From assembly GCA_945910395.1 (NCBI GenBank), contig CAMDYX010000018.1:1-46025 (forward strand): a DNA stretch of 46,025 nt, given 5' to 3'. The translations under genes were made by a program, and so were the position numbers. This DNA is from an uncultured Agathobacter sp. (GTDB lineage: Bacteria > Bacillota > Clostridia > Lachnospirales > Lachnospiraceae). Under the pieces are notes generated by a model. The model saw nothing but the letters and a program-made list of their open reading frames with translations, made no database searches and was not told the origin of the DNA. Of this stretch, positions 19,808 to 45,314 are shown piece by piece (position 1 is the first letter of the stretch; every line of letters starts with the position of its first letter).

Positions 19808-19992
19808 AAAACCCATTTCGAAAAAGTGTTCCTGAATGAATTTGCATATTTGAATCAGAACCCACTCTCGTTTGTAAAAAGCGTAGCGGTACTAAATTCG
19901 TAAGTATTTGCTCATTAAGTGCCGACGCTTTTTAAACGTTCTGATTCAAAGAGCAAAATTCATTCTTAGGAACACAATTTCAAAAAGGGTTT
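19808..19992 (+). repeat. Large intergenic palindrome, copy R3 (complete)
   Basis: A 185-bp near-palindrome. Outer arms AAACCCATTTCG and the GTGTTCCTGAATGAATTTG stretch pair with CATTCTTAGGAACACAATTT and AAAAAGGGTTT. Middle arms ATTTGAATCAGAAC/GTTCTGATTCAAA and inner arms AAAAAGCGTAGCGGTAC/GTGCCGACGCTTTTT follow, around a centre ACTAAATTCG...CTCATTAAGT. It fills most of the 361-nt gap between the hydrogenase terminator and the RNase H promoter; no gene is visible in that gap. Confidence 0.92.
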
Positions 19993-20005
19993 TTTTAAAA
20001 AACAA

Positions 20006-20035
20006 TTGAAAAGGATAGGAGATATATACTATAAT
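20006..20035 (+). promoter_or_regulatory. Promoter for the RNase H gene
   Basis: -35 TTGAAA (20006-20011), 18-nt spacer, -10 TATAAT (20030-20035), just downstream of repeat R3. Confidence 0.75.
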
Positions 20036-20094
20036 AAAACAAATAACTTTAGGAATTTAGTGTCTGAAAGCACAGGGCTTCAGATGGGGGATGA

Positions 20095-20688
20095 ATGGCA
20101 AGTAAGTATTATGCAGTAAAGATTGGAAAAACACCGGGGATTTATCTGACTTGGGATGATTGCAAGAAAATGGTGGATGGTTATCCCGGTGCAGTATATA
20201 AGAGCTTTAAGACAATTACAGAAGCCGAGGCTTTTCTTGATACCGACAGCAGAGAAGAAGGTTCGTTGGAGAATGAAACCTACGCATTTGTTGACGGCTC
20301 ATTTCGAGAAGATACCAAGGAATACGGTTATGGAGGCTTTCTGATTCATGAAGGAAATAAGTATATTCTTCAGGGAAAAGGAAACGATCCCCAAATGGCA
20401 TCCATGCACAATGTCGCAGGAGAGGTGCTTGGCAGTATGGCAGCGATTCAAAAGGCATTAGAGCTTGGACTAGATGAGCTTACCATTTATTATGACTATC
20501 TGGGAATCGAAATGTGGGCCACCGGCGCCTGGAAGCGGAACAAACCGGGAACCATTGCGTATTTTGACTATATACAAAAGGTGAAAAATCAAATCAGGCT
20601 GATTTTTATAAAAGTAAAAGGGCATTCTGGAATAGAGGGGAATGAAGAGGCAGATCGACTGGCAAAAGAATCGATTGGATTAGACTGA
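20095..20688 (+). CDS. Ribonuclease HI with N-terminal viroplasmin/RNA-binding domain
   Basis: A 197-residue enzyme that cuts the RNA strand of RNA-DNA hybrids. Residues 1-45 form the caulimovirus viroplasmin-like hybrid-binding domain (KYYAVKIGKTPGIYLTWDDC, VYKSFKTITEAEAFL). The RNase H fold follows with the carboxylate set in YAFVDGSFRED, AGEVLGSMAAI, YYDYLGIEMWATG and HSGIEGNEEADRLAK. This two-domain form is typical of Firmicutes. The ATG at 20095 has GGGGG close upstream. The EAL gene follows after 20 nt and aroB after that, so the three probably form an operon. Confidence 0.93.
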   Translation: MASKYYAVKIGKTPGIYLTWDDCKKMVDGYPGAVYKSFKTITEAEAFLDTDSREEGSLENETYAFVDGSFREDTKEYGYGGFLIHEGNKYILQGKGNDPQMASMHNVAGEVLGSMAAIQKALELGLDELTIYYDYLGIEMWATGAWKRNKPGTIAYFDYIQKVKNQIRLIFIKVKGHSGIEGNEEADRLAKESIGLD

Positions 20689-20708
20689 CAGAGGAAAACG
20701 GGGGTATT

Positions 20709-22385
20709 ATGGCAGAAGAGAAGGATTTACTGAAAATTAAAGCAGATGTGATTGATGAAATGGATAGCCCGGTGCTTATTTTTGGAAAAGATGATGTATT
20801 GGGCGTATGTAACAGGGCCGCAAAAGAATTGCTTGGTGCATCGGAAGGAACCAATCTTTGGGAATTTGCATCCTCAACAAATCTACGCTACATTTTAACA
20901 CCGGAACAACGGAGAACCGGGCAAAGCAAAGAGTTTCATTTGGCAGTGCATATCCGTGGAAAGGTGTATTTGATCCACGGAAAAGAAAAATGGGATGCAG
21001 ATTGCCGTTTTGAGGGGGTTTTTCTGATCTACAATGATATCACAGATCAGGAAAATATGAAGGATGAGGCAACCTATTATGCGACTCATGATAAGCTGAC
21101 CGGATTGTGGAATCGTGACTACTTTTTCGAGATGGTACAGAAGGTGCTGTACGAAAATCCGGACACCCCATTTTATATGATTGCCTCAGATATCAGTCAG
21201 TTTAAACTGTTTAATGAAATATTGGGAATTCGGGCAGGGAATGAATTGCTGCTCAGTATCTCTGAAAACTACAGAAAAGTGCGCCGGGCCAACTGGGTAT
21301 TCTCCAGATTTACAGCAGACCGGTTTGCTCTTCTGATGCCCAAGGCAGATTTTGATGAAAAGCGTTTTCTTGATTTTTGCGATGGAGTAGTGGAAAGCTC
21401 CAATTATTCTTTGCAAATTCATAATTATATAGGCGTCTATGAAATTACAAATCCGCGTATCGATCCGGAGCAGATGTATAACAGAGCATATCTGGCTCTG
21501 GAATCCATTAAAGGAAATCTGCAGCAGAAGGTTGCCTATTATGATGAAAAAATACGTGCGCGAAGAATGGCAGAACGTTTGACTATAGATGAGCTGGAGC
21601 ATGCCCTTAAGGATGAAGAGTTTGTAATCTATATCCAGCCTCAGATCGATTCAAGAAATAATAAGGTAATCGGTGGAGAAACCTTAGTCCGCTGGTTATC
21701 CCCAAAGAGAGGGCTGGTTCCGCCATCTGAATTTGTCCCTATTTTCGAAAAGAACGGAATGATTACAAAAATGGATTACCATGTCTGGGAGCTTGCCTGC
21801 AGACAGCTGGCGGAATGGAAAAAACAGGGACATCCGGAGCGCTCGTTATCCATCAATATTTCTGCCAAGAATTTTTACCTGACAGATTTGTATGAAAGAA
21901 TCACCGGACTTGTTGAAAAGTATGACATTGAACCTCAACGCTTAAAGCTTGAAATTACAGAGACTGCATTTGTGCTTGATATAAAGAAGCAAATGGCTCT
22001 TGTAAAGAAGCTGCAGGAGAGAGGATTTTTGGTGGAAATGGACGATTTCGGAAGCGGATTCTCTTCTCTTAACAGCTTAAAGGATATTTGTATAGATGTC
22101 TTGAAGCTGGATATGGATTTCTTTGTAAAGACAGAAAATCAGGACAGGAGCAGAAAAATTATTGCAAGTATGGTCAGCCTTGCCAACAAGCTGCACACAC
22201 CGGTAATAGCAGAGGGTGTTGAGATGGAAGAACAGATAGATTATTTAAGTAGCGTTGGCTGTCATATTGTGCAGGGATATTATTTCTCAAAACCAATGTC
22301 TGCGGCAGAATATGAAAAATTCATGGAGAATCATGAATCCGAGGATATCAGAGATGTGATTCGCGAGTTGAAGGAAAAGGAGTAA
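20709..22385 (+). CDS. Cyclic-di-GMP phosphodiesterase (PAS, degenerate GGDEF, EAL)
   Basis: A 558-residue cytosolic signalling protein with no membrane segment. Residues about 1-115 look like a PAS sensor (DVIDEMDSPVLIFGKDDVLG). The GGDEF domain (HDKLTGLWNRDYFF onward) has TADRF in place of GGDEF, so it should not make c-di-GMP. The EAL domain from about residue 300 keeps ETLVRW, NISAKNF, EITETAF, DDFGSGFSSL, LKLDMDFF and VIAEGVE, so it should hydrolyse c-di-GMP. It lies between the RNase H gene and aroB with short gaps. The PAS ligand is unknown. Confidence 0.93.
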   Translation: MAEEKDLLKIKADVIDEMDSPVLIFGKDDVLGVCNRAAKELLGASEGTNLWEFASSTNLRYILTPEQRRTGQSKEFHLAVHIRGKVYLIHGKEKWDADCRFEGVFLIYNDITDQENMKDEATYYATHDKLTGLWNRDYFFEMVQKVLYENPDTPFYMIASDISQFKLFNEILGIRAGNELLLSISENYRKVRRANWVFSRFTADRFALLMPKADFDEKRFLDFCDGVVESSNYSLQIHNYIGVYEITNPRIDPEQMYNRAYLALESIKGNLQQKVAYYDEKIRARRMAERLTIDELEHALKDEEFVIYIQPQIDSRNNKVIGGETLVRWLSPKRGLVPPSEFVPIFEKNGMITKMDYHVWELACRQLAEWKKQGHPERSLSINISAKNFYLTDLYERITGLVEKYDIEPQRLKLEITETAFVLDIKKQMALVKKLQERGFLVEMDDFGSGFSSLNSLKDICIDVLKLDMDFFVKTENQDRSRKIIASMVSLANKLHTPVIAEGVEMEEQIDYLSSVGCHIVQGYYFSKPMSAAEYEKFMENHESEDIRDVIRELKEKE

Positions 22386-22391
22386 GTAGTT

Positions 22392-23504
22392 TTGGGTATC
22401 TTTAATGTGGAGTTGAAAAAGGTTGTTGATGACAGCTATGATATTGAAATTGGATATGATCTGATCGGGGTGCTGATTGATGATATCGACAGAGGGCTGG
22501 TTGGTAAAATCAAAAAATTTGCTGTGATCACAGATTCCAATGTTGAAGAATTGTATGCAAAGCCAATATGTAATCTGCTGGTACAGTCAGGCTATAGTGT
22601 GGATATGTTTGTATTCCCGGCAGGGGAAAAAAGCAAAACAAGACAGACCAAGGAAAAACTGGAAGATGCCATGCTTAGCAGAGGTTTTCGAAGAGATTGC
22701 TGTGTGATTGCCGTTGGAGGCGGTGTGGTAACGGATATTTCCGGTTTTTTAGCGGGAACCTTTGGAAGAGGTGTTCCTTTCATTAATTATGCTACAACAC
22801 TTCTTGCAGCAGCGGATGCATCGGTAGGCGGAAAAACCGCGGTGGACACACCCCTTGCGACAAATCTGATTGGATTATTTAATCAGCCGAAAAAGGTATA
22901 TATTGATATTGCGGCATGGAAGAGCCTGCCAAAGCGCCAGTTGTCCAGCGGAATGGCGGAGACCATCAAGCATGCATGTCTTGCAAGCTATGATATGTTT
23001 GAATTTCTGGAAGAGAATATGGATGCAATTTTAGAGGGCGATAAATTTGCATGTGAATATATTGCGGAGAACAATTGCAGAATCAAGTACGAAGTGGTAA
23101 TGAAGGATGAAAAAGAGAGCGGACTTCGTGAGATTTTGAACCTCGGGCATACGGTTGGACGCGCCATAGAGACGGTCAGTGACTATCAGCTGCTGCACGG
23201 GGAAGCCCTTGCGATCGGGATGGCGGCGGAAGTCATGCTTTCTGCAAGACTTGGATATATGTCGGAGGAGGAAGCCGGCCGGGTGACTGCACTCTATGAA
23301 AAAGCTGGGCTTTCCACAAAAATTCCGGATTATATCGACAGAGAAGAGCTTGTGAAAAAACTCTATACGGATAAGAAGGTTCGGGATGGAAGACTGCGTT
23401 TTGTTCTTCAAAAAGGGATTGGAAGTGTGGTTGAATTTGAACCCGGTGTTTTTGCAAAACCAATCGAGGAGGAAACTGCAAGAGAAATCATTATGCAGTT
23501 ATAA
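22392..23504 (+). CDS. aroB: 3-dehydroquinate synthase
   Basis: Second enzyme of the shikimate pathway; NAD- and metal-dependent cyclisation of DAHP. The 370-residue protein shows the NAD-binding VIAVGGGVVTDISGFLAGTF, DASVGGKTAVD, and metal-ligand motifs SGMAETIKHACL (Glu), LNLGHTVGRAIE (His) and LLHGEALAIGM (His). The start is TTG at 22392, supported by AAAGGAG with about 9-nt spacing; an in-frame GTG at 22407 is a less likely alternative. Its TAA stop is the left tip of the palindrome R4, which separates it from the convergent tmcAL. Confidence 0.96.
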   Translation: MGIFNVELKKVVDDSYDIEIGYDLIGVLIDDIDRGLVGKIKKFAVITDSNVEELYAKPICNLLVQSGYSVDMFVFPAGEKSKTRQTKEKLEDAMLSRGFRRDCCVIAVGGGVVTDISGFLAGTFGRGVPFINYATTLLAAADASVGGKTAVDTPLATNLIGLFNQPKKVYIDIAAWKSLPKRQLSSGMAETIKHACLASYDMFEFLEENMDAILEGDKFACEYIAENNCRIKYEVVMKDEKESGLREILNLGHTVGRAIETVSDYQLLHGEALAIGMAAEVMLSARLGYMSEEEAGRVTALYEKAGLSTKIPDYIDREELVKKLYTDKKVRDGRLRFVLQKGIGSVVEFEPGVFAKPIEEETAREIIMQL

Positions 23505-23699
23505 CTCCCTCCATTTTACAAATGTGTGTCTGAATGAATTTTGCATATTCCAATCAGAACACACTCTCGTTTCGTAAAAAGCGTAACGGTACTAAATTCG
23601 CAATGAATTGCTCATTAAGTGCCGACGCTTTTTAAATGTTCTGATTGGAATATGCAAAATTCATTCATAGACACACAAATGTAAAAAAAGAAGTTATAA
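23500..23699 (+). repeat. Large intergenic palindrome, copy R4 (stop codon to stop codon)
   Basis: A 200-bp palindrome whose outermost paired bases TTATAACT (23500-23507) and AAGTTATAA (23691-23699) include the stop codons of both convergent genes, aroB and tmcAL. The arm GAATGAATTTTGCATATTCC followed by AATCAGAACA is matched perfectly on the other side for 30 bp, better than in any other copy. The distal arms (ATGTGTGTCT/AGACACACA) differ from those of R3, R5 and R9 yet still pair. It fills the whole intergenic region. Confidence 0.92.
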
Positions 23700-24935: not shown

Positions 24936-24958
24936 AGCTGCTCCTTATAATTTGAAGT

Positions 24959-25133
24959 CACTTTCGGAATTGAGGGTCCGAATGAATTTGCATATTTGAA
25001 CCAGAACCCACTTGCCTTTGTAAAAAGCGTAGCGGTACTAAATTCGCAAGTACTTGCTCATTAAGTGCCGACGCTTTTTAAACGTTCTGATTTAAATAGC
25101 AAAATTCCTTCTCGGAAACCCAATTCCGAAATG
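24959..25133 (+). repeat. Large intergenic palindrome, copy R5 (complete, divergent region)
   Basis: Outer arms TTTCGGAATTGAGGGTCCGA and TTCTCGGAAACCCAATTCCG pair (with a small bulge), then ATTTGAACCAGAAC/GTTCTGATTTAAAT and the inner AAAAAGCGTAGCGGTAC/GTGCCGACGCTTTTT. Unlike the others it lies between divergent genes (tmcAL and ackA), so it cannot be just a terminator. In the 340-nt gap the rest is the ackA promoter. Confidence 0.9.
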
Positions 25134-25205
25134 GGATTTATTTGATAGAAAAAGTATAGCACATTCCCAAAGAAAATATAGGTCTTGTGAAAAAAATAAC
25201 ATAAC

Positions 25206-25234: not shown

Positions 25235-25275
25235 AGTAGCAGTTTGTAAATAATAACCAAGAAGGAGAAAAATAA

Positions 25276-26469
25276 ATGAATGTTTTAGTTATTAACTGCG
25301 GAAGTTCCTCTCTGAAATATCAGTTAATCAACTCTGAGTCGGAAGAGGTTCTTGCAAAGGGATTATGTGAGAGAATTGGAATCGATGGAAGACTGGTATA
25401 TCAGAAGGCCGGACTTGACAAAGAAATCACCGAGGCAGATATGCCTACCCATAAGCAGGCAATCCAGATGGTATTAGATGCGCTGGTAAATGAGAAGACC
25501 GGTGCAATTAAGTCCCTTTCTGAAATTGATGCGGTAGGACACCGTGTAGTGCATGGCGGAGAAAAATTCGCTTCCTCTACCATTCTTACAGAGGAAGTGT
25601 TGAAGGCCATTGAAGAGTGTAATGATCTTGCACCACTTCATAATCCGGCAAACTTAATCGGAATTGATGCCTGCAAGGAATTGATGCCGAACACACCGAT
25701 GGTTGGTGTATTTGATACCGCCTTCCACCAGACTATGCCGAAAAAAGCTTATCTTTATGGACTTCCATATGAATACTATGAGAAGTACAAGGTAAGAAGA
25801 TACGGATTCCACGGAACCAGCCACAGCTTCGTTTCAAAAAGAACTGCTGAGTTCTTAAACATGGATTTAAAAGCATCTAAGATCATTGTTGCACATCTTG
25901 GAAATGGTGCTTCCATCAGTGCTGTATTAAATGGAGAGTGTGTAGATACTTCCATGGGACTTACTCCACTTGAGGGTCTTGTGATGGGAACAAGATGCGG
26001 AGATATCGACCCTTCCATCGTGGAATTTATCGCCAACAAAGAAAACTTAACCATCGGCGAAGTACTTAGCATATTGAATAAGAAGTCCGGTGTTCAGGGA
26101 ATGTCAAGAGTATCCTCTGACTTCCGTGATCTTGAGGTTGCTTTCAATGAGGGAAATGAGCTCGCAATCAATGCAGTAGAAGTGTTCTGCTATAAGGTTG
26201 CAAAATATATTGGATCTTATGTTGCAGCCATGAACGGAGTGGACGCAATTGCATTCACAGCAGGAATCGGTGAGAATACCAGCTTTGTCCGGGCTAAGAT
26301 CTTAGAGTATCTTGGATATCTTGGAATTGAGGTTGATGAGGCTGCAAACGGAAAGCGCGGTGAAGATACAGTAATCTCTACTTCGGACTCCAAGGTTAAG
26401 GTTTGCGTAATTCCAACCAACGAAGAGCTTGCAATCTGCCGTGAAACCGTAGCATTGGTAAACGCATAA
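25276..26469 (+). CDS. ackA: Acetate kinase
   Basis: Transfers phosphate between acetyl phosphate and ADP, giving ATP and acetate in fermentation. The 397-residue protein has NCGSSSLKYQL at the N-terminus, VGHRVVHGGEKF, the catalytic-region GVFDTAFHQTMP, RRYGFHGTSH, HLGNGASISAV and FTAGIGENTSFVR. An AAGGAG site precedes the ATG. No phosphotransacetylase gene lies beside it; it appears to be a single-gene unit with its own promoter. The truncated repeat R6 follows. Confidence 0.98.
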   Translation: MNVLVINCGSSSLKYQLINSESEEVLAKGLCERIGIDGRLVYQKAGLDKEITEADMPTHKQAIQMVLDALVNEKTGAIKSLSEIDAVGHRVVHGGEKFASSTILTEEVLKAIEECNDLAPLHNPANLIGIDACKELMPNTPMVGVFDTAFHQTMPKKAYLYGLPYEYYEKYKVRRYGFHGTSHSFVSKRTAEFLNMDLKASKIIVAHLGNGASISAVLNGECVDTSMGLTPLEGLVMGTRCGDIDPSIVEFIANKENLTIGEVLSILNKKSGVQGMSRVSSDFRDLEVAFNEGNELAINAVEVFCYKVAKYIGSYVAAMNGVDAIAFTAGIGENTSFVRAKILEYLGYLGIEVDEAANGKRGEDTVISTSDSKVKVCVIPTNEELAICRETVALVNA

Positions 26470-26486: not shown

Positions 26487-26575
26487 CATGAATTGCTCAT
26501 TAAGTGTCGACGTTTTTTTAAAGTTCGGATTCGAATAGCAAAATTCGTTATGGAAAAACACAAATCCGAAATAGG
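26487..26575 (+). repeat. Large intergenic palindrome, copy R6 (right half only)
   Basis: Starts in the centre (GAATTGCTCATTAAGTGTCG), continues through ACGTTTTTTTAAAGTTCGG and TTCGAATAGCAAAATTCG to AACACAAATCCGAAATAGG. The left half is missing; the ackA stop codon lies 17 nt upstream. It ends about 20 nt before the DUF177 promoter. Confidence 0.85.
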
Positions 26576-31135: not shown

Positions 31136-31816
31136 ATGAAGCAGTTAGCCGAGTTTCAGGAAAAAATCGGGTATTCCTTCAAAGAAGAAGGATTGCTTAG
31201 ACAAGCCTTGACCCATAGTTCCTATGCAAATGAGAAACATATGAAGAAGCTTTCAGATAACGAACGTTTAGAGTTTTTGGGAGATGCGGTGCTCGAAATC
31301 GTATCCAGTGACTTTCTGTATGCAAATTATCCGGATCTCCCGGAAGGAGATCTTACCAGACTTCGTGCCAGCATTGTCTGTGAACCAACACTTGCGATGT
31401 GCACGGATATGTTGAACCTTGGGGATTATCTTTTACTTGGAAAAGGAGAGGATCAGACCGGAGGTAGAAAGCGAAAATCCATTCTTTCGGATGCTCTTGA
31501 AGCAATTATTGGCGCAATTTATTTAGATGGTGGTTTTGCTAATGCAAAAGAATTTGTGCTAAAATATATTCTTACAGATATTGAGCATAAGAAACTCTTT
31601 TATGATAGCAAGACTATCCTGCAGGAAGTGGTACAAGGGGAACATGAGACACTTTCCTATGTGCTGGTAGAAGAGAGCGGACCGGATCATGACAAGAGCT
31701 TTTCCGTGAATGTCTGTGTGGGAGACAAAGTGATAGGAAGCGGAGTGGGACATACAAAAAAGGCCGCAGAACAGGAGGCCGCATATCGCGCGCTTCTGGT
31801 ATTAAGAGGAGAATAG
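31136..31816 (+). CDS. rnc: Ribonuclease III
   Basis: Endonuclease that cuts double-stranded RNA in rRNA processing and mRNA turnover. The 226-residue protein has the catalytic signature NERLEFLGDAVLEI at about residues 43-56, a second acidic site ILSDALEAIIGAIYLDGG, and a C-terminal dsRNA-binding domain from about residue 155 (LQEVVQGEHETLSYVLVEES, GSGVGHTKKAAEQEAAYRAL). Long palindromic RNAs such as transcripts of the R-family repeats would be natural substrates. The smc ATG follows only 3 nt after the stop. Confidence 0.97.
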   Translation: MKQLAEFQEKIGYSFKEEGLLRQALTHSSYANEKHMKKLSDNERLEFLGDAVLEIVSSDFLYANYPDLPEGDLTRLRASIVCEPTLAMCTDMLNLGDYLLLGKGEDQTGGRKRKSILSDALEAIIGAIYLDGGFANAKEFVLKYILTDIEHKKLFYDSKTILQEVVQGEHETLSYVLVEESGPDHDKSFSVNVCVGDKVIGSGVGHTKKAAEQEAAYRALLVLRGE

Positions 31817-31819
31817 TGA

Positions 31820-34800
31820 ATGTATTTAAAAAGTTTAGAGGTACATGGTTTTAAATCCTTTGCCAACAAAATCGTATTCGATTTTCACAATGGAATCACA
31901 GGTATCGTAGGACCAAACGGTAGTGGTAAGAGTAATGTAGCAGATGCCGTTCGCTGGGTATTAGGAGAGCAGAGCACAAAGCAGCTGCGTGGCTCCTCCA
32001 TGCAGGATGTTATTTTTGCCGGTACGGAAAACAGAAAACCATTGTCCTATGCATATGTTGCAATTACCCTGGATAACTCGGATCATCAGCTTGCGGTAGA
32101 CTATGAGGAAGTGACAATCGCAAGAAGATTATACCGCTCCGGTGAGAGTGAATACTTAATCAACGGAACTACCTGCCGTTTAAAGGAAGTAACGGAATTA
32201 TTCTATGATACCGGTATTGGTAAAGAGGGATATTCCATTATTGGACAGGGTCAGATTGACCGTATTTTAAGTGGTAAGCCGGAGGAACGCAGGGAGCTTT
32301 TTGATGAGGCAGCAGGTATTGTGAAGTACAAGAAGCGTAAGGCTACTGCACAGAAAAAGCTGGAAAGCGAGCAGGAAAATCTGGTTCGTGTCAATGATAT
32401 TCTTGCAGAATTGGAGCGTCAGGTGGGACCTCTGGAAAGACAGTCGGAGAAGGCAAAGATTTACCTGAAAAAGAAGGCAGATTTGAAAGAATACGATGTA
32501 AATATGTTCCTTCTGGAGGTAAACCGCATTGATACCCAACAAAAAGAGGTGGAAGGAAAGTATGCCATTGCCCAGGCCCAGCTGGACGAGACAAACGCTG
32601 CATATGAAAAAATCAAATCCGAATATGAGACCTTAGAGCAGAATATTGCCCAGATGGAAGAGCAGATCAATTCCATCCGGGAGAATATCAGCAATTCTAC
32701 GGTAAATAAACAGCGTCTGGAGAGCCAGATCAACATCTTAAATGAGCAGATTCATACGGCGGAAATGACCGATGAGCATTTGCAGAGCCGTTTGGATGCA
32801 ATCGATGCAGAAAAGGCAGAGCGCCTTTTAGCAAAGGGTGAATATGACGAAAAGAAGGCGGCTCTTGATGCTTCCATCGCTGAGGTGGAAGAGAAAAAGA
32901 AGGAAGCAGAAGAGGAGCTTGCTGCAATTACGGCTGAGATTTCCCGCTGTAATAACGGAATCGCAGAAGGCCAGACGGAGCTCTTTTCACTTCTGAACAA
33001 CAAGGCTTCCATAAAAGCGCGTCAGCAGAAATATGACACCATGTTGGAGCAGATCAACATCCGAAAAGCGGAGCTTACCAAGCGGCTTTTGGACCGGAAG
33101 ACAAAGGAAGCAGATCTTATGTCTGTTCTGGAGGGCTGTAAGAAGGAGCTTGCAGTCGTAAATGACAAGCTGGCAGAGTTAAAGAGCAAAGAAGAAGCGC
33201 TGATACAAAAGGATAAGGAATGGAAAAGTAAGCTTTTCGAGAATGAACAGAAGCTTGAAAAGGCACAGGAGGAATACCACAGAAAGCAGTCAAAATTAGA
33301 ATCACTTAAAAATATTGCGGAACGGTATGATGGATACGGAAACAGTATCAAAAAGGTCATGGAGCAGAAGGGGGAAAATCCGGGACTTCTTGGTGTTGTA
33401 TCTGATCTCATTCAGGTGGACAAGAAGTATGAAACTGCCATCGAGACTGCTCTTGGCGGAAATATCCAGAACATCGTTACGGAAGATGAAGATACGGCGA
33501 AGAAGATGATTGCTTTCCTAAAACAGAATCGTCTCGGCCGTGCAACGTTCCTTCCGCTTACCAGTGTAAGTGCAAGAGGTAATGGGAAAAATGAGGCAGC
33601 ATTGGGGGAACCCGGTGTGATCGGCCTTGCAAATGAGCTTGTAAAATGTGAGGCAAAGTATAACGAAGTGGCAGCTTATCTTCTTGGAAGAGTGCTTGTG
33701 GTAGATACGATTGATCACGCAATTGCGCTGGCAAAAAAGAATCATTACAGCTTACATATTGTAACATTAGAAGGAGAATACTTAAGTCCCGGAGGCTCTA
33801 TGACCGGTGGTGCATTTAAGAATTCCTCTAATCTGCTCGCAAGAAATCGTGAAATTGAGGAGATTGAGACCGAGATTTCAGAGCTTGAAAAGGTGCTTGC
33901 TGCTGCAAAGGACAGAAAGGAAGATATCTTAACGGCCCAGGCATTAGGGCAGGAAGAAATGGAGGAGTTAAAGACCATTCTTCAGGAACAGTACATTTTG
34001 CAGAATACGGCAAAGCTGAATGTAGAGCGTGCAAAGCAGCAGCAGGCAGAAAGTGAACATGTATTTTCAGGCCTAAAGAATGAGAGCAATGAGATTGAAC
34101 TGCAGCTTTCTGACATCAATCTGAATAAGCAGAAGATTTTGGATGAAATTGCCTATTCGAAGAAGCGCGAGGAAGAGATTGAAAAGGAGAAAAAAGAGTA
34201 CCAGAAAATCTTAGATGAGCAGAGCAAAAAAGAGGAAGCTGCAAAGGATAAGGTTTCAAAGGTTCTCCTGGAGCAGGCCAACTTAAGCCAGAGTGCAGGC
34301 TTTATTTTAGAGAATATCCAGCGTTTGAATCATGAAATTGAAAAGTTTGATACGGAAAGAAATGATTTGTTAGAAAACGCAAAGAATGCGAAGCTTGACG
34401 TTGAGAAGAAGAAGCAGGATATCGAGGAAATTCAAAAAACGATTGCTGCAAGCGATGATGTCTTCGTTAAGATGAACGAGGATTTAAAGGAGAATATCAA
34501 AAAGAAAGAAGAAATGTCTGCCGATTACAGAGGCTTTTTCCAGAAACAGGAGGAAATCTCAAAGCAGCAGAATGACCTGGATAAAGAAATTTTCCGATTG
34601 AATTCTCAGAGAGAAAAGTTAAAGGATGCAGCAGAATACCAGACAAACTATATGTGGGAAGAGTATGAGCTTACTCCCCACGCAGCAGAAGAGCTTCGCA
34701 AAGAGGAATATCAGGATCTTTCTGCATTAAAGAAAATGGTTGCCGAGGTAAAGGACGAAATTCGAAGGCTCGGAGACGTCAATGTAAATGCGATTGAGGA

Positions 34801-35380
34801 ATATAAAGAGGTATCCGAACGTTACACCTTCTTAAAGGGGCAGCATGACGATCTGGTGGAGGCGGAGCAGACCTTACTGGGAATTATTGCAGAACTGGAT
34901 ACCGGTATGCGAAATCAATTTACAGAGAAATTTGCCGAAATTCAGAAGGAGTTCGATAAGTCCTTTAAGCAGCTGTTCGGTGGAGGTCACGGCACCCTTG
35001 AGCTTGTGGAGGATGAAGATATCTTAGAGTGCGGAATCCGAATCATCGCACAGCCGCCGGGAAAGAAGCTTCAGAATATGATGCAGCTGTCCGGTGGAGA
35101 GAAGGCGCTTACTGCAATTGCGCTTTTATTTGCAATCCAGGCACTGAAGCCTTCCCCATTCTGTCTTTTGGATGAGATCGAGGCTGCGCTGGATGATTCA
35201 AATGTCGGACGCTTCGCATCCTACTTAAATAAACTGACCAAGAATACGCAGTTTATTGTCATCACACACAGACGTGGTACCATGACCGCAGCAGACCGTC
35301 TCTACGGTATTACCATGCAGGAGAAGGGGGTATCCACTCTGGTATCTGTGAACCTCATCGAAAATGATTTAACGGAATAA
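31820..35380 (+). CDS. smc: Chromosome segregation protein SMC
   Basis: A 1186-residue ATPase of the condensin complex that compacts and separates chromosomes. Walker [17 protein letters not shown] is near residue 31, followed by two long coiled coils (about 170-500 and 680-1000) around a hinge near 515-670 that ends in [11 protein letters not shown]. The C-terminal head has the ABC signature [10 protein letters not shown] near 1091 and Walker [13 protein letters not shown] near 1114. The kleisin partners ScpA and ScpB are not in the window. It is in the usual rnc-smc-ftsY order, but repeat R7 splits smc from ftsY. Confidence 0.98.
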
Positions 35381-35385
35381 TAAGA

Positions 35386-35575
35386 ATTTTCTCACTTTTT
35401 ATAATCGTGTGTCTGAATGAATTTGCATATTCTATTGCAGACACGCTTTCGCTTGGGACAGAACGTAGCGGTACTAAATTCGCAATGAATTGCTCATTAA
35501 GTACCGACGTTCCTTTACAGTCTGCAATTAGAATAGTCAAATTCATTCCTGAACACACATAAAAAGTGAGAAAAT
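35386..35575 (+). repeat. Large intergenic palindrome, copy R7 (complete, diverged)
   Basis: Outer arms ATTTTCTCACTTTTTAT (35386-35402) and ATAAAAAGTGAGAAAAT (35559-35575) are perfectly complementary and unrelated in sequence to the outer arms of other copies. The middle arms are TATTCTATTGCAGAC/GTCTGCAATTAGAATA and the inner ones GAACGTAGCGGTAC/GTACCGACGTTC; both differ from the family and both still pair. It fills the smc-ftsY gap together with the mini-palindrome at 35591. Confidence 0.92.
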
Positions 35576-35590
35576 ATATCATTTCGTATA

Positions 35591-35633
35591 TGGGCTCTCA
35601 AAAATGAATATGCAAATTCATTTGAGGAGCCCA
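35591..35633 (+). repeat. Mini-palindrome sharing the AATTTGCATATTC core
   Basis: A 43-nt near-palindrome: TGGGCTCTCAAAAATGAATA followed by TGCAAATTCATTTGAGGAGC and CCA. The core ATGAATATGCAAATTCAT resembles the arm tip of the R-family. No T-run follows, so it is not a standard terminator. It lies 45 nt upstream of ftsY. Confidence 0.8.
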
Positions 35634-35677
35634 AACTTGAAAAAGATAGAATATTTTAAGGAAAGTGAGAAAAATAC

Positions 35678-36664
35678 ATGAGCCTTGAATTGGAGAATGA
35701 AGTTTTAGAGGAGAATAAGACTGAGAAAAAGGGATTTTTCAAGAGGTTGGTGGAAGGATTGACCAAGACCAGAAACAACATTGTTTCCGGAATTGATGCT
35801 GTTTTTGGCGGTTTTTCTCATATCGATGAGGGGTTTTATGAGGAGCTGGAGGAAATCCTGATTATGGCAGACCTGGGGGTGAAGGCTACGGAAAGCATTC
35901 TGGATTCCCTTCGGGACAAGGTAAAGGAAAACCATATTAAGGAGCCGGCCGACTGCAAACAGCTTCTGATTGACAGTATCAGGGAACAGATGCAGGTGGA
36001 GGAAGCCGCTTATCGTTTTGAAAATGAAAAATCCGTTGTGCTCGTCATTGGTGTCAATGGTGTAGGAAAGACGACTACGGTGGGAAAGCTTGCAGGAAAG
36101 CTGGCAAAGCAGGGAAAAAAGGTGGTTCTTGCAGGTGCTGACACCTTCCGTGCGGCGGCAACCGATCAGCTGAAGGAGTGGGCAAACCGGGCCAATGTAG
36201 ATATGATCGGCGGAACAGAAGGCGCAGATCCGGGATCTGTGGTTTATGATGCTACTGCGGCAGCGAAGGCACGAAATGCAGACGTACTTCTTGTAGATAC
36301 TGCCGGACGTCTTCACAACAAAAAGAATCTGATGAATGAGCTTGGCAAAATCAATCGTATCCTAGAGAAGGAATACCCCGATGCATACCGTGAGACCTTA
36401 GTGGTGCTTGATGCTACCACAGGACAGAATGCGCTGGTGCAGGCAAAGGAATTTTCCGAGGTCGCAAAAATTACAGGTATAGTTCTTACCAAAATGGATG
36501 GAACCGCAAAGGGCGGAATTGCTGTTGCAATCCAGTCGGAGCTGTCGGTTCCTGTCAAATATATTGGTGTAGGTGAGACCATCGATGATCTTTCCAAATT
36601 TGATCCGGATGAGTTTGTAAATGCACTTTTTGATATCAAGAAAGAAGGAGAAGAAGCATGTTGA
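35678..36664 (+). CDS. ftsY: Signal recognition particle receptor FtsY
   Basis: Membrane-associated GTPase that receives SRP-ribosome complexes. The 328-residue protein has a short N-terminal acidic region, the N domain (FFKRLVEGLTKTRNNIVSGI), and the G domain with Walker A GVNGVGKTTTVGKLA near residue 126, DTAGRLHNKKNLM near 207, TKMDGTAKGG near 270 and GVGETIDDLSKFDPDEF at the end. The short N-terminus is usual in Gram-positives. Its last 7 nt overlap the start of the threonine ammonia-lyase gene. Its partner ffh is 3.7 kb downstream. Confidence 0.97.
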   Translation: MSLELENEVLEENKTEKKGFFKRLVEGLTKTRNNIVSGIDAVFGGFSHIDEGFYEELEEILIMADLGVKATESILDSLRDKVKENHIKEPADCKQLLIDSIREQMQVEEAAYRFENEKSVVLVIGVNGVGKTTTVGKLAGKLAKQGKKVVLAGADTFRAAATDQLKEWANRANVDMIGGTEGADPGSVVYDATAAAKARNADVLLVDTAGRLHNKKNLMNELGKINRILEKEYPDAYRETLVVLDATTGQNALVQAKEFSEVAKITGIVLTKMDGTAKGGIAVAIQSELSVPVKYIGVGETIDDLSKFDPDEFVNALFDIKKEGEEAC

Positions 36665-38792: not shown

Positions 38793-38821
38793 CATTCCAA
38801 TCTGGCGTAGGAGAATGTAGT

Positions 38822-39919: not shown

Positions 39920-39940
39920 GAAATAGCGGCTGAAAAATAA

Positions 39941-40312
39941 ATCCCATTTCGGAAAAGTGTTCCCGAATGAATTTGCATATTTGAACCAGAAATGTGAGAT
40001 TTGGCAAGATTTGTGGTTCTAGAACTGCCGTATACCTAAAATCTTTGAAAAACAGCTTCAAATTGCGGCTTTTTCGTGCGAATTGTATTATTTTTTAGAG
40101 AGAATTTCGCTGTCTACCTAATATTTGCAATTTTTTAGGTACAGGCTAAATTTGATCCGGCGAAAACATACAATCGACCATAAAAAGCGCTTAAAATGTC
40201 GCTTTTTGCATAAATTTTAGGTACCAGAAGAAAATCAATCAGCGAAATAATACAATTTACCAAACTAGCATGAAGTGAAATTCATTTTCACGAACACAAT
40301 TCCGAAAAGGGA
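39941..40312 (+). repeat. Large intergenic palindrome, copy R8 (core replaced)
   Basis: Left arm ATCCCATTTCGGAAAAGTGT plus TCCCGAATGAATTTGC (39941-39991) and right arm tip AATTCATTTTCACGAACACA, then ATTCCGAAAAGGGA (to 40312), still pair. The usual AAAAAGCGTAGCGGTAC core is missing and about 285 nt of unrelated sequence replaces it. No gene is visible in the 492-nt gap 39920-40411. Confidence 0.85.
40033..40257 (+). repeat. Structured insert inside R8 with its own inverted repeats
   Basis: AATTGTATTATTT (40081-40093) is exactly complementary to AAATAATACAATT (40245-40257); ATTTCGCTG (40104-40112) to CAGCGAAAT (40240-40248); TACCTAATATTTGC (40115-40128) pairs with GCATAAATTTTAGGTA (40208-40223); AAAAAGCG (40182-40189) with CGCTTTTT (40200-40207). 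TACCTAA/TTAGGTA occurs four times in all (40033, 40115, 40135, 40217). Confidence 0.75.
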
Positions 40313-40328
40313 GAAAAAAATATTTTGT

Positions 40329-40375: not shown

Positions 40376-40411
40376 AACCAAGGTCACAAAATGTGCGAAG
40401 GAAGGGCGAAC

Positions 40412-41782
40412 ATGGCATTTGATAGCTTATCAGAAAAACTTCAGAACGTGTTTAAGAATCTTCGCAGTAAAGGAAGACTGACGGAGGATGATGTTAAGAC
40501 TGCCTTAAAGGAGGTCAAGATGGCACTCCTCGAAGCGGATGTAAACTTCCGTGTCGTTAAGCAGTTCACAAAGGATGTACAGGAACGGGCAATCGGACAG
40601 GATGTCATGAACGGCTTAAATCCCGGTCAGATGGTCATCAAGATTGTAAATGAAGAGATGGTCAAGCTGATGGGATCAGAGACCACCGAGATTGCGTTTC
40701 GTCCGGGAAAAGAGCTTACCGTCATTATGATGGTTGGTCTTCAGGGTGCAGGTAAGACCACCACCACAGCAAAGATCGCAGGAAAGCTCAAGCTGAAAGG
40801 AAAGAAAACACTTCTTGCAGCTTGTGACGTGTACAGGCCGGCGGCCATTGAACAATTACAGATCAATGGAGAAAAGCAGGGGGTAGAAGTATTTTCCCTT
40901 GGAGATAAAGAAAAGCCGGAGAATATTGCAAAGGCTGCGATGGAATATGCCAGAAAGCAGGAGTTTAACGTCCTGATTATTGATACTGCCGGTCGTCTTC
41001 ATGTAGATGAGGACATGATGGCAGAGCTTGTAAAAATCAAAGAAGCCGTAGATGTGTTCCAGACGATTCTGGTAGTGGATGCCATGACAGGACAGGATGC
41101 AGTCAATGTGGCAAGTACCTTTGATGAAAAGATTGGAATTGACGGGGTTGTACTTACCAAGTTAGATGGTGACACCAGAGGCGGTGCAGCTCTTTCTATA
41201 CGTGCCGTAACCGGAAAACCAATTCTTTATGCAGGTATGGGTGAGAAGCTTTCAGATCTGGAGCAGTTTTATCCGGACCGTATGGCGAGCAGAATTCTTG
41301 GTATGGGCGATGTTCTTACCATGATTGAGAAGGCTCAGGAGAATATCGACGAAGAGAAGGCAAAAGCACTTGAGCAGAAGATGCGAAAGAATGAGTTTGA
41401 CTTTGAGATGTATCTTGATTCCATGAGCCAGATGAAGAAAATGGGCGGTCTTTCCAGCATGATGGGAATGATGCCGGGGCTTGGACTTGGCGGCGGAAAA
41501 ATGCCGGATATCGATACCGATGCGGCAGAAAAGCAGATGGCAAGAACCGAAGCAATTATTTATTCGATGACGCCTCAGGAGAGACGGAATCCAAACATTA
41601 TGAATCCGAGCCGGAAGCAGCGTATTGCAAAGGGCGCAGGAGTTGATATTTCAGAGGTAAACCGTCTGATCAAGCAGTTTGAACAGATGAAGAAGCTGAT
41701 GAAGCAGATGCCGGGAATGATGGGCGGCAAGAAGGGCCGTCGCGGAGGCATGGGTGGAATATTCAAAGGACTTCCTTTTTAG
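40412..41782 (+). CDS. ffh: Signal recognition particle protein Ffh
   Basis: SRP54-type GTPase that binds signal sequences and 4.5S/6S-like SRP RNA. The 456-residue protein has the N domain (FDSLSEKLQNVFKNLRSKG), Walker A GLQGAGKTTTTAKIAGKL near residue 108, DTAGRLHVDEDMM near 191, TKLDGDTRGGAALSI near 249, and from about 300 the Met-rich M domain (MKKMGGLSSMMGMMPGLG, then NPNIMNPSRKQRIAKGAG). The ATG at 40412 has AAGGAAGGG upstream and matches the family start. The SRP RNA gene is not in the window. Confidence 0.97.
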   Translation: MAFDSLSEKLQNVFKNLRSKGRLTEDDVKTALKEVKMALLEADVNFRVVKQFTKDVQERAIGQDVMNGLNPGQMVIKIVNEEMVKLMGSETTEIAFRPGKELTVIMMVGLQGAGKTTTTAKIAGKLKLKGKKTLLAACDVYRPAAIEQLQINGEKQGVEVFSLGDKEKPENIAKAAMEYARKQEFNVLIIDTAGRLHVDEDMMAELVKIKEAVDVFQTILVVDAMTGQDAVNVASTFDEKIGIDGVVLTKLDGDTRGGAALSIRAVTGKPILYAGMGEKLSDLEQFYPDRMASRILGMGDVLTMIEKAQENIDEEKAKALEQKMRKNEFDFEMYLDSMSQMKKMGGLSSMMGMMPGLGLGGGKMPDIDTDAAEKQMARTEAIIYSMTPQERRNPNIMNPSRKQRIAKGAGVDISEVNRLIKQFEQMKKLMKQMPGMMGGKKGRRGGMGGIFKGLPF

Positions 41783-41830
41783 TCCTTTTGAATGATAAAT
41801 CAAACAAATATTTCAAGGAGGTGAAATGAC

Positions 41831-42076
41831 ATGGCAGTAAAGATCAGATTAAGAAGAATGGGACAGAAGAAGGCTCCTTTCTATAGAATTATCGTAGCAG
41901 ATTCCAGATCCCCAAGAGATGGAAGATGCATCGAGGAGATCGGAACTTATGATCCAACAAAGAATCCTACTGAATATCATGTAAATGAAGAGTTAGCAAA
42001 GAAGTGGTTAGCTAATGGCGCACAGCCAACGGAAACCGTTGCTAAGATTTTCAAGAACGCTGGTATTGAGAAATAG
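41831..42076 (+). CDS. rpsP: 30S ribosomal protein S16
   Basis: An 81-residue ribosomal protein starting [20 protein letters not shown], then [10 protein letters not shown] and [10 protein letters not shown], all conserved. AAGGAGGTGAAATGAC gives a strong ribosome binding site. It lies 48 nt after ffh in the standard ffh-rpsP-KH-rimM-trmD-rplS order. Confidence 0.98.
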
Positions 42077-42095
42077 GATTTGTGGGGTGAACGTA

Positions 42096-42326
42096 ATGAA
42101 AGAATTAGTTGAAGTAATTGCAAAATCATTAGTAGACAATCCGGAAGAAGTAGTTGTTACTGAAACCGAGAATGAGAAAGCAATTGTTTTGGAATTACGT
42201 GTTGCACAGTCTGATATGGGCAAAGTAATCGGCAAGCAGGGACGTATTGCAAAAGCAATCCGCGCCGTGGTAAAGGCCGCAGCCTCAAAGGAAGACAAAA
42301 AGGTTATTGTCGAGATTGTACAGTAA
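42096..42326 (+). CDS. khpA: KH domain RNA-binding protein (KhpA/YlqC)
   Basis: A 76-residue single-KH protein, MKELVEVIAKSLVDNPEEV followed by the KH loop VAQSDMGKVIGKQGRIAKAI. KhpA proteins bind RNA with partner KhpB/EloR and influence division and small RNA function. The ATG at 42096 is preceded by GTGGGGTGAACGT; a longer frame upstream lies inside rpsP. A terminator follows. Confidence 0.94.
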   Translation: MKELVEVIAKSLVDNPEEVVVTETENEKAIVLELRVAQSDMGKVIGKQGRIAKAIRAVVKAAASKEDKKVIVEIVQ

Positions 42327-42333
42327 ACCATAT

Positions 42334-42365
42334 AAGCCGTCTCAAGCTTTTGAGACGGCTTTTTT
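42334..42365 (+). terminator. Terminator after the KH gene
   Basis: AAGCCGTCTCAA (42334-42345) pairs perfectly with TTGAGACGGCTT (42350-42361) and ends in a T-run to 42365. rimM starts 33 nt further on, so its expression may rely on read-through. Confidence 0.95.
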
Positions 42366-42398
42366 CAAATTATGAAAAGACGGTTGAGAGGATAGTGT

Positions 42399-42905
42399 AT
42401 GGAAGAGTTATTACAGGTCGGGGCCATCACATCAACCCATGGAATAAGGGGAGAAGTCAAGGTGTTTCCTACGACAGATGATCCAAAGCGTTTTTGTAAA
42501 TTAAAGCAGGTGATTCTGGATGATGGAAAGTCAAAAAAGAATCTTGAGGTGGAAAGTGTTAAATTTTTTAAGAATCTTGTGATTCTGAAATTTAAGGGCC
42601 TTGATGATATTAATGAGGTAGAAAAGTACAGGAAGGCAACTCTTTGGGTGACAAGAGATCAGGCCGTTCCATTAAAAAAGGACGAATATTTTATCGCGGA
42701 TCTGATCGGTTTATCTGTTGTGACAGAGGACGGTGAAGAACTGGGAAATATTACAGATGTCATACAGACCGGAGCAAATGATGTGTATGTTGTAGCAAAA
42801 GAGGGGGAAGAGGAGCTTTTAATCCCTGCAATCAAGGACTGTGTGAAAAATGTGGATCTGGAGAATCGGGTAATGACGATTTTTCTTATGCCCGGGCTTC
42901 GATAG
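42399..42905 (+). CDS. rimM: Ribosome maturation factor RimM
   Basis: Assists 30S head assembly through S19. The 168-residue protein has the N-terminal barrel (LLQVGAITSTHGIRGEVKVF, PTTDDPKRF) and the PRC-like C-terminal barrel (EYFIADLIGLSVVTEDGEEL, VYVVAKEGEEELLIPAIKD). It is normally followed by trmD, but here a DUF4190 gene intervenes. Confidence 0.96.
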   Translation: MEELLQVGAITSTHGIRGEVKVFPTTDDPKRFCKLKQVILDDGKSKKNLEVESVKFFKNLVILKFKGLDDINEVEKYRKATLWVTRDQAVPLKKDEYFIADLIGLSVVTEDGEELGNITDVIQTGANDVYVVAKEGEEELLIPAIKDCVKNVDLENRVMTIFLMPGLR

Positions 42906-42950
42906 AAAACGGTTTGTACCAGATGATGTATAAAAAGTGGAGAAACGAAA

Positions 42951-43628
42951 ATGGCAAGATATATAAGGGAAGAAGTATTAAATCAGCCGGATGATTTTGT
43001 AAATTATATGATGAATGATTTTTTGACCAAGCATGGGTTTAAATATGAGAATTTTAAAGGTCAGATGGTCTACCGCGCAGGCGGAGGACTGATTGAGCTT
43101 CCGAAATTTATCACATGGAGCTATTTTAACGGAGTGATTCATATTGAAGCGTGGGTTCGCGTGCTATGGCTTCCGGGGGTTTATGGCAAAGAGAATGATA
43201 TGAGTGGTTTTTATGGCGCTGTTGTAAAGGATATGTACAAAAAGGATGTAGAGCAGTTGATTTCGTTGCTGCATCAGCCACTGAATCAGTCAGCAGTGCA
43301 GCCGGGAATGTCACAGCAGCCGGGAATGCCACCACAGCCTGGGATGCCACCGCAACCGGGAATGCCACAGAATGGTCCAATTCTGGTGCAGGGAGTGGAT
43401 ACTTCAAGATATGCAAATTTCGCTCTGGGATTTGGCATCGCAGGTCTTGTGTTAAGCTGGTCCTATTTGGGTATTGTATTTAATATTATCGCTATCATAT
43501 ATGCAGTAAAGGGAAAGACGTCTGCAAAGAAGGGTAGAGCAACCGCCGGTATGGTATGCGCCATCATTGGACTTGCAATTGTAGTACTTTGTTTCCTTGG
43601 TGGATTTATCATTGGACTTTTAGGATGA
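42951..43628 (+). CDS. DUF4190-type membrane protein with PQPGM repeats
   Basis: A 225-residue protein of unknown function. The N-terminal 110 residues form a soluble domain (ILNQPDDFVNYMMNDFLTKH-like, GLIELPKFITWSYFNGVIHI) that may bind a ligand or partner. A low-complexity linker repeats PGMPPQ four to five times. The C-terminus has two hydrophobic helices (ALGFGIAGLVLSWSYLGIV, MVCAIIGLAIVVLCFLGGF) with the small GRATAGMV loop of the DUF4190 family. It lies between rimM and trmD, four nt before trmD, an unusual place for it. Confidence 0.75.
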   Translation: MARYIREEVLNQPDDFVNYMMNDFLTKHGFKYENFKGQMVYRAGGGLIELPKFITWSYFNGVIHIEAWVRVLWLPGVYGKENDMSGFYGAVVKDMYKKDVEQLISLLHQPLNQSAVQPGMSQQPGMPPQPGMPPQPGMPQNGPILVQGVDTSRYANFALGFGIAGLVLSWSYLGIVFNIIAIIYAVKGKTSAKKGRATAGMVCAIIGLAIVVLCFLGGFIIGLLG

Positions 43629-43632
43629 TTAT

Positions 43633-45126
43633 ATGAACTTTCACATTTTATCCCTTTTTCCGGAAATGGTTCTGGGCGGTTTAGCCACCAGCATTACCGG
43701 AAGGGCAATGAAACAGGGAAAACTGAATATCGAAGCGGTTGACATTCGCGATTTTTCGAAAGACAGGAATAAAAGAGTGGATGACTATACCTATGGTGGC
43801 GGTGCCGGAATGCTGATGCAGGCTCAGCCGGTGTACGATGCCTGGGAATCGGTAGCAAAAAAGATTGCACAAAATAGTGTAACAAAAACCTTCCCGGGGG
43901 ACTGCTCAAAGAAAGTTCGTACCATTTATGTAACGCCCCAGGGAACGCCTTTTTCCCAAGCAATGGCGGAGGATTTTGCAAAGGAAGAGGAGCTTGTGAT
44001 TCTGTGCGGCCATTATGAAGGAATTGATGAGCGTGTGTTGGAAGAGATTGTCACGGATTATGTCTCCATCGGAGACTATGTGCTGACCGGCGGAGAATTA
44101 GCGGCAATGGTGATTGTTGACGCCGTATCAAGACTCGTTCCGGGAGTGCTTCACAATGAGGTCTCCGCAGAAACGGAATCCTTTCACGGAAATCTATTAG
44201 AGTATCCGCAGTACTCCAGACCCAGTGTGTGGCATGAAAAAGAGGTTCCAGCAATTCTCCTTACCGGAAACCAGAAGGAGATTGATAAATGGAGAAGAGA
44301 GCAGGCGGTTCTGCGAACAAGGCAGAGAAGACCGGATCTGTTTAGAACCTATTGCAGGCTTGAAAAAATAAAGGAAGCTCTTTGCACTGAAAAGCTTCTT
44401 CATACGGATATGATTGCCGCAATAGACCGGGGAAGTGCCAAAGTTGTTTTTTGGAAAAAGGAAGAGATTCTGTTATACGATCTGCAGACGGATATCTATT
44501 ATCATACAAATCTTTCCCAAAGTAGCAGGCAGAGCTTTTTGCAGGGATTTGTAATGGAGGAGAATGATGTTTTGTCCAAGCATCCCTGTAATTGTCTGGT
44601 ACTTCATCAGCAGAAATTTGTAAAAAGAGCGGAACTGCTTTTTGAATTAAAGAAAACTATGTCCTGCAATCAGGTCGTATACACCAGACATGAAAAGGCA
44701 CCGGTATCCGGATTGTATCGCCCGGATGGAAAATGTATGCCAAACGGACTTGTGATAAAGCAGCTTACAAAAGAACATGCCAAACTTGTATCAGAGGCTT
44801 ATCTTACGATGGATAAGGAGTATGTCGAGGAACGCATCCTGTCTGGCGCAATGATCGGCGCCTTTGTCGAAGAAAAAATGCTGGGATTTTGTGGAAACCA
44901 TAACGACGGGGAGATTGGCATGCTCTATGTATATCCGGACTACCGGAGACAGAAAGTAGCCAAGGCTTTGGTTACTTATCTGATCAATCAGAAGCTGGAT
45001 ACGGGGCAGGTGCCATTCGGTCAGATCGTTGATACGAATGAAAGCAGCAGGAAGCTAGCAGAAGGCTTAGGAATGTATACTTCCAAAACTCAGCTATACT
45101 GGCTGGAAAAAAAGGAAAATGCATAG
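43633..45126 (+). CDS. trmD: tRNA (guanine37-N1)-methyltransferase fused to a GNAT acetyltransferase
   Basis: A 497-residue two-domain protein. Residues 1-250 are a complete TrmD: MNFHILSLFPEMVLGGLATS, YGGGAGMLMQAQPV, ILCGHYEGIDERV, the trefoil-knot SIGDYVLTGGELAAMVIVD and RRPDLFRTYCR at the end. TrmD makes m1G37 in tRNAs and prevents frameshifting. After about residue 255 comes a second region of about 240 residues ending in a GNAT domain (NDGEIGMLYVYPDYRRQKVAKALVTYL, IVDTNESSRKLAEGLGMY). The middle part (residues 260-380) is not recognised. The frame is continuous with no internal ribosome binding site noticed. Substrate of the GNAT part is unknown. Confidence 0.93.
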   Translation: MNFHILSLFPEMVLGGLATSITGRAMKQGKLNIEAVDIRDFSKDRNKRVDDYTYGGGAGMLMQAQPVYDAWESVAKKIAQNSVTKTFPGDCSKKVRTIYVTPQGTPFSQAMAEDFAKEEELVILCGHYEGIDERVLEEIVTDYVSIGDYVLTGGELAAMVIVDAVSRLVPGVLHNEVSAETESFHGNLLEYPQYSRPSVWHEKEVPAILLTGNQKEIDKWRREQAVLRTRQRRPDLFRTYCRLEKIKEALCTEKLLHTDMIAAIDRGSAKVVFWKKEEILLYDLQTDIYYHTNLSQSSRQSFLQGFVMEENDVLSKHPCNCLVLHQQKFVKRAELLFELKKTMSCNQVVYTRHEKAPVSGLYRPDGKCMPNGLVIKQLTKEHAKLVSEAYLTMDKEYVEERILSGAMIGAFVEEKMLGFCGNHNDGEIGMLYVYPDYRRQKVAKALVTYLINQKLDTGQVPFGQIVDTNESSRKLAEGLGMYTSKTQLYWLEKKENA

Positions 45127-45129
45127 AGT

Positions 45130-45314
45130 AACTTTCATTTCGGATTTGTGTTACTGAATGAATTTGCATATTTGAATCAGAACCCACTCTCGTTTGTAAA
45201 AAGCGTAGCGGTACTAAATTCGCAATAAATTGCTCATTAAGTACCGACGCTTTTTAAACGTTCTGATTCAAATAGCAAAATTCATTCTCAGTAACACAAA
45301 TTCGAAAAGGAATT
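45130..45314 (+). repeat. Large intergenic palindrome, copy R9 (complete)
   Basis: AACTTTCATTTCGGATTTGT and GTTACTGAATGAATTTGC pair with ATTCATTCTCAGTAACACAA and ATTCGAAAAGGAATT. Middle arms ATTTGAATCAGAAC/GTTCTGATTCAAAT and inner AAAAAGCGTAGCGGTAC/GTACCGACGCTTTTT follow. The tip TTACTG/CAGTAA differs from R3 (TTCCTG) and R4 (GTCTG) on both sides. It occupies most of the 314-nt gap between trmD and rplS. Confidence 0.93.

Follow-up and report, generated by a model that had tools for sequence, protein, structure and literature searches.

Hairpin repeats with co-varying arms and a conserved core in a genome of the Lachnospiraceae

The window, that is the whole stretch of 46,025 nucleotides analysed here, is contig C18 of a 3.14 Mb draft genome (127 contigs, 89% complete), whose FtsY is closest to those of Agathobacter sp. 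(89%), Roseburia faecis (88%) and Roseburia porci (84%), all Lachnospiraceae. It carries a series of repeats and repeat pieces (R1 to R9, Table 1), all in the same + orientation, and these window copies are a non-autonomous element resembling a miniature inverted-repeat transposable element (MITE), with a hairpin at its core. An earlier note had described the repeats as palindromes whose arms differ from copy to copy while staying paired, and had offered either selection on a folded strand or template switching as the cause. The arm sequences quoted there for R3, R4, R5, R7 and R9 are all present where they had been placed, but the copies are not all full palindromes: R1 and R2 are right-arm pieces, R6 is without a left arm and R8 is another element. 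R7 occupies the spacer between smc (31820-35380) and ftsY (35678-36664); rnc, smc and ftsY, as identified by Pfam, are consecutive at 31136-36664. Relatives have a shorter spacer between smc and ftsY, but the divergence is too great for an exact empty site to be defined.

Table 1. Repeats and repeat features of the window
Feature	Position	Strand	Basis
R1, right-arm part; contig starts within the copy	1..66	+	repeat match
R2, right-arm fragment	11286..11338	+	repeat match
R3, full element, ~182 bp	19810..19991	+	repeat, sequence, fold
R3 conserved core hairpin (ACTAAATTCG..CTCATTAAGT)	19891..19920	+	core pattern
R4 left 8-bp target duplication AGTTATAA	23497..23504	+	sequence
R4, full element, TGTGTGTC-type outer arms; core 23591-23620	23505..23691	+	sequence
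R4 right 8-bp target duplication AGTTATAA	23692..23699	+	sequence
R5, full element; core 25037-25066	24957..25137	+	sequence
R6, consisting of loop and right arm without the lost left arm; directly after an open reading frame stopping at 26469	26487..26574	+	sequence
R7, full element, minority inner-arm subfamily; core 35473-35502	35391..35570	+	sequence
R8, different element, ~373 bp; same terminal arms, other centre	39941..40313	+	sequence
R9, full element; core 45213-45242	45132..45313	+	sequence

We sampled the window's own genome as 51 stretches and then a further 20, giving 71 stretches and 450,550 bases. The loop CTCATTAAGTRCCGACG is matched 228 times in this genome at up to two mismatches; at up to one mismatch there are 224 matches, compared with four or fewer in any of 39 other relatives. 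All 107 copies examined fall outside open reading frames (ORFs) of at least 90 amino acids. At least seven contigs (C2, C13, C14, C20, C22, C23 and C24) start inside a copy of the element, hence the assembly breaks at the repeat and the copies are undercounted. The consensus element is about 182 bp long with terminal inverted repeats TCCCATTT...AAATGGGA. Both ends were found in 78 of 120 loop copies, and exact 8-bp direct duplications, beginning one base beyond the ends, flank 17 of these 78 where permuted flanks give an expectation of 0.36 (an earlier count on a smaller set gave 10 of 68). Seven or eight of the eight flanking positions match in 27 of the 78, against 1.9 expected, and the duplications are 95% A+T. 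The element thus shows the traits of a MITE, namely terminal inverted repeats, target duplications of fixed length, small size, no coding sequence and a high copy number, and the 8-bp duplications would mark a MITE moved by a DDE-type transposase.

Three pairs of inward-facing ends were seen in the 71 stretches and the window. Two of them enclose other genes, in one case trmK and a kinase and in the other trkH, an ORF without a Pfam match and a TPM protein; the third is R8, for which longer stretches recur in L029, L053 and L059 (labels with L denote loci or stretches examined, those with G genomes or genera). Short solo hairpins of about 36-80 bp, with the terminal arms and without the core, are present in L021, L039, L050, L056 and L064. 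End-like matches in congeners were considered as a possible autonomous transposon and rejected, as they adjoin ordinary genes when judged from the translations.

Folding of R3 gave -75.4 kcal/mol on the + strand (z -12.3) and -73.7 kcal/mol on the - strand (z -9.7), and on neither strand was any of 200 shuffles as good. The first set of stretches together with the window contains 104 loop copies, 94 of which were aligned and 10 dropped as they are cut by contig or stretch ends. In the inner stem of this alignment 69 cells differ on both sides yet keep a Watson-Crick pair, where 500 shuffles gave 10.8 (maximum 19), so that the covariation test bears out the proposal that the arms co-vary. The right arm of a copy scores above the row median with its own left arm in 95 of 103 copies (mean percentile 0.81), with a median of 34 compared to 25 for cross combinations. 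Compensated pairs shared by no more than three copies were found in 32 of the 94 copies, many of them private to a single copy; one of the 32 is R6, where the pair is meaningless since the left arm is lost. RNAalifold on 34 hand-picked copies predicted 55 pairs, 22 of which have at least one compensated change.

The copies of this genome fall into subfamilies: most outer arms are of one of two types, and a minority of copies has a different inner arm. The distal ends of R4 and R7 had both been thought unrelated to the other copies yet paired. This holds for R7, which has an unusual outer arm (CTCACTTTTTAT / ATAAAAAGTGAG) that does pair. In contrast, the distal end of R4 is not a case of co-variation but the target duplication AGTTATAA, which seems paired because TTATAA is self-complementary, and the arm within the duplication (TTTTACAA.TGTGTGTC / GACACACA) is common to several other copies. 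The different inner arm reported for R7 is indeed there but is not unique to it, as it is shared by two others of the 94 copies (L021 and L029) and by elements of another genus, G659 (L243, L253, L260 and L265). At L033 (1707-1835) the inverse of an R7-type right arm serves as left arm and is joined to an ordinary right arm. This left arm scores 48 against the inverse of the R7-type right arm and 26 against R7's own left arm, and an inverted arm of this kind is the expected result of arm inversion by template switching.

Pairing is also kept as the sequence drifts across genera. The long-arm signature CTCATTAAGTRMCGACG was found in 13 of 397 genomes, representing 12 genera, with 187 matches in the own genome, 135 in G641 and 1-13 in each of the others. 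For 33 elements outside the own genome the median complementarity of an arm to its own partner is 24 compared to 8 between elements, and the own arm is best, ties counted, in 31 of them (the exceptions being L174 and L261). In G641 the elements have a hypervariable arm pair with conserved sequence inside and just outside it, arm identity being 0.60-0.65 against 0.90 inside the element (24 copies). The 77 G641 copies that were kept (15 others were cut) contain 66 distinct left arms, each differing yet paired; the own partner scores 16 against 7, is best in 50 of the 77 and has a mean percentile of 0.96. Among the changes counted in G641 (39 of 56 copies near a common arm), 90 are double and paired, 24 are one-sided and 9 are double and unpaired. 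Hence the two arms do not change independently, nor is pairing lost as often as it is kept, the outcome that would have spoken against co-variation. No target duplications were seen in 20 G641 copies at any tested offset. In elements of G007 and G023 (L009, L010, L014 and L016) the palindromes extend outward via more paired arms, with short conserved loops (TACGAAA / TTTCTTAC).

The core of the element has a pattern with fixed mismatches, ACTA-NNN-TCG-hairpin-CTC-N'N'N'-AAGT, which is widespread in Lachnospiraceae. Among 392 genomes from the order, 33 contain its strict form ACTAAATTCG..CTCATTAAGT, every one of them in the family Lachnospiraceae, and a general form ACTANNNTCG..CTCNNNAAGT is present in 139 of 296 Lachnospiraceae genomes. 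A single match to the general form is not evidential, since a reversed control matches many genomes once or twice (maximum 6), but at least five matches occur in about 50 genomes against 2 for the control, with up to 74 matches outside the own genome. Both triplets are fully paired in 125 of 150 listed cores, compared to 27.7 (maximum 42) in 1000 shuffles. In 43 distinct core 27-mers 30 cells are paired after a change on both sides, compared to 9.0 in shuffles, and the covariation score is 0.290 against 0.146, neither value being reached in any of 500 shuffles; only the triplets and the apical stem were free to vary here, as all other positions were set by the pattern used for the search. Two further counting measures on the same 43 27-mers, the pairs changed on both sides and the number of pair types, were no higher than in shuffles. 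Compensatory pairs beyond chance, a trait of structured RNA, are thus present in the core triplets, the core 27-mers and the inner stem of the own genome.

Two architectures contain the core, namely short units, often in tandem, and solitary long palindromes like those of the window. Short units are found close to genes and within clusters of tRNA and rRNA genes (L162, L163, L168, L190 and L193). At L168, L190 and L193 the core units stand between tRNA genes with the opposite strand label, hence the tRNA transcript would carry the minus strand of the core. The TC/TC internal loop is repeated exactly 11 nt outward in 33 of 65 short units, whereas each of the other shifts from 1 to 13 is seen 0-4 times; read on the opposite strand, the loop forms a tandem G-A mismatch, in a sequence context known as stable. 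Wobble in the core triplets consists of 13 A-C against 2 G-T (p 0.007), or 8 to 2 (p 0.11) after collapsing triplet pairs that are identical, and short units are in sense orientation by 30 to 11 (units of one locus counted apart and a few long-arm elements included). The A-C excess and this orientation would point to a minus-strand RNA. We favour the view that the core is under selection, its mismatches apparently being kept while its helices co-vary, and it perhaps acts as an RNA of the other strand. No Rfam 15 family was found over the core (window at gathering scores, 16 loci at E<=5 and 20 loci at E<=0.1), the sole Rfam match covering cores being an rRNA match that spans L163. A phage or plasmid origin was rejected, as the strict core has no match in IMG/VR and the own-genome consensus none in plasmids or phages.

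We propose, giving it an even chance, that the repeat is a MITE with a Lachnospiraceae-wide core, where the core is selected as a folded strand and the arms are matched by DNA copying. In this model the core would be retained because something recognises the folded strand, most likely as RNA within transcripts of spacers and 3' untranslated regions. The long arms would drift and stay matched because template switching at the imperfect palindrome copies one DNA arm from the other, and selection for the presence of some stem would act alongside. In the window's species a transposase would have carried one such element to some 200 sites. Template switching is described (PMC8604942) as a process that homogenises the arms of inverted repeats and inverts spacers.

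The pattern of changes suggests that the two arms change together probably because one is copied from the other in DNA. The whole hairpin, arms included, might instead be selected as a structured RNA or as single-stranded DNA with ordinary stepwise compensation, which we consider rather unlikely. If compensation proceeded stepwise in an RNA, G-U intermediates would be expected on one strand, together with a preference for transitions. The own genome does have a G-T excess, with 178 G-T against 123 A-C (p 0.002; 70 and 60 in the inner stem alone), together with an orientation bias of co-directional copies of 44 to 14 (47 to 12 on a smaller set); both weigh against our proposal, and selection on an RNA could explain them. 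The rare compensated pairs in 32 of the 94 copies, and the sense bias and minus-strand wobble of the short units, agree with selection on the whole hairpin as well. In contrast, the 1448 arm cells of G641 comprise 1404 Watson-Crick, 9 G-T, 10 A-C and 25 other combinations, an early wobble excess there (11 to 3 in 24 copies) having gone with 77 copies, and 32 elements outside the own genome have 65 G-T and 74 A-C. The tRNA stems of the same loci show 45 G-T in 656 bracketed pairs (A-C is perhaps not bracketed, so only the G-T share is comparable). Orientation is neutral both in G641 (10 to 9) and in the other long-arm elements (9 to 9). Furthermore, the paired double changes of G641 are 64 transversions and 26 transitions, whereas single changes inside the element are 101 and 132, respectively. 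The lack of a G-T excess in G641 and the predominance of transversions among the paired double changes argue against stepwise RNA compensation and for one-step arm copying. Between the two causes put forward in the earlier note, the long arms mostly favour arm-to-arm copying and the short core favours selection.

A founder effect alone, in which a few source elements with differing arms were copied and mutated independently afterwards, is improbable: it would fit the existence of subfamilies and the smaller gap between own and cross scores in the own genome, but not the compensated pairs private to single copies, the many distinct paired arms in the one genome G641, or the excess there of paired double over one-sided changes. 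We think it very improbable that elements insert into pre-existing hairpins such as terminators, the outer arms being the stem of the target. A T run does follow the outer arm in some elements (L179, L253 and L264), and passages of PMC3733652 mention dimers of repetitive extragenic palindromes (REPs) within longer palindromes in some bacteria; however, the variable arms of G641 are flanked on both sides by conserved sequence, and the arms in the own genome lie within the target duplications. Mobilisation of REP-like elements by a REP-associated tyrosine transposase (RAYT, an HUH enzyme) seems scarcely credible and is disfavoured for the own genome, even though a hairpin with conserved mismatches, high copy number, intergenic placement and a minus-strand CGTC beside the core that resembles the CGTC-REP tag are all in keeping with it. 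The domain Y1_Tnp (PF01797) is present in 8 of 12 motif-rich against 6 of 12 motif-free genomes, and its absence from 4 of the 12 motif-rich genomes, the own one (89% complete) included, rules out such an enzyme as a necessary partner. HUH enzymes are not known for leaving 8-bp duplications.

Further points count against a MITE with a selected core and copied arms. Neither a transposase nor an autonomous transposon with these ends was found in the 71 own-genome stretches and the window, and joining the flanks of copies gave no clear empty site. No template-switch event between strains was observed. The double changes of G641 were counted ungapped, so that small indels could inflate them, and unrelated sequence would have nearly the same share of transversions (71%). 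Furthermore, the copies and elements of one genome are not independent. Finally, palindromes are prone to deletion, and the persistence of the long arms therefore suggests that the stem itself is selected.

Co-varying stems usually count as proof of a functional RNA. Here, in a large natural data set, the arms co-vary without wobble and mostly by transversions, as expected from DNA copying between arms, beside a co-varying core with fixed mismatches, and two causes become separable within one element. The repeats form a family in common gut bacteria, without an Rfam family matching it in the loci scanned and lying beside ribosomal, tRNA and other genes, which turned into a MITE in one lineage. 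More tentatively, there may be family-wide functional hairpin RNAs in Lachnospiraceae, in which a dedicated protein would read 2x2 internal loops along one face, their spacing of 11 nt corresponding to one turn of an RNA helix. Some genomes might keep these copy by copy at over 100 sites, and double-stranded arms that correct themselves would give each copy its own sequence.

No paper on the window's repeat, or on GA-cis RNA in Lachnospiraceae, was found in one library searched by titles and abstract openings. The repeat is similar to the ERIC/YPAL elements of enterobacteria in being a long imperfect hairpin (100-190 bp in the latter), intergenic and present in tens to hundreds of copies, but it has another sequence, occurs in another phylum and has copy-specific paired arms and a fixed-mismatch core that spans many genera. 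ERIC elements are said, in passages of PMC2267715, to act as RNA hairpins on neighbouring genes. With REPs and CGTC-REPs, as described in parts of PMC3733652, it shares intergenic palindromes mostly downstream of genes and a CGTC by the core; CGTC-REPs, too, are without a known transposase, and the text of that paper nowhere contains Firmicutes, Clostrid or Lachnospir. The stems of REPs measure 5-13 bp and their tag is unpaired, whereas the window repeat has far longer stems and the CGT of its CGTC is paired in the fold, so that the unpaired GTAG/CGTC tag on a short stem that defines tagged REPs is lacking. Hence, despite its resemblance to ERIC/YPAL and REP, we place the repeat apart from tagged REPs, as it has neither their tag nor their stem and its own genome is without Y1. 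One match to GA-cis RNA (Rfam RF02987) lies directly beside a core at L184 (1568-1627), with 40.6 bits against a cut-off of 34.7, but it adjoins the core without overlap and is the only such match in 36 loci. Template switching at quasipalindromes is known in the form of mutation events, whereas our proposal makes it a continuing process that acts on all members of a repeat family. With MITEs the window element shares terminal inverted repeats, target duplications, the lack of coding capacity and a high copy number; unlike them, it has no parent transposon in the sequence searched and holds a structured core which occurs without these ends in many other genomes. We class the repeat as a variant of structured intergenic repeats that has spread as a MITE in the window's species.

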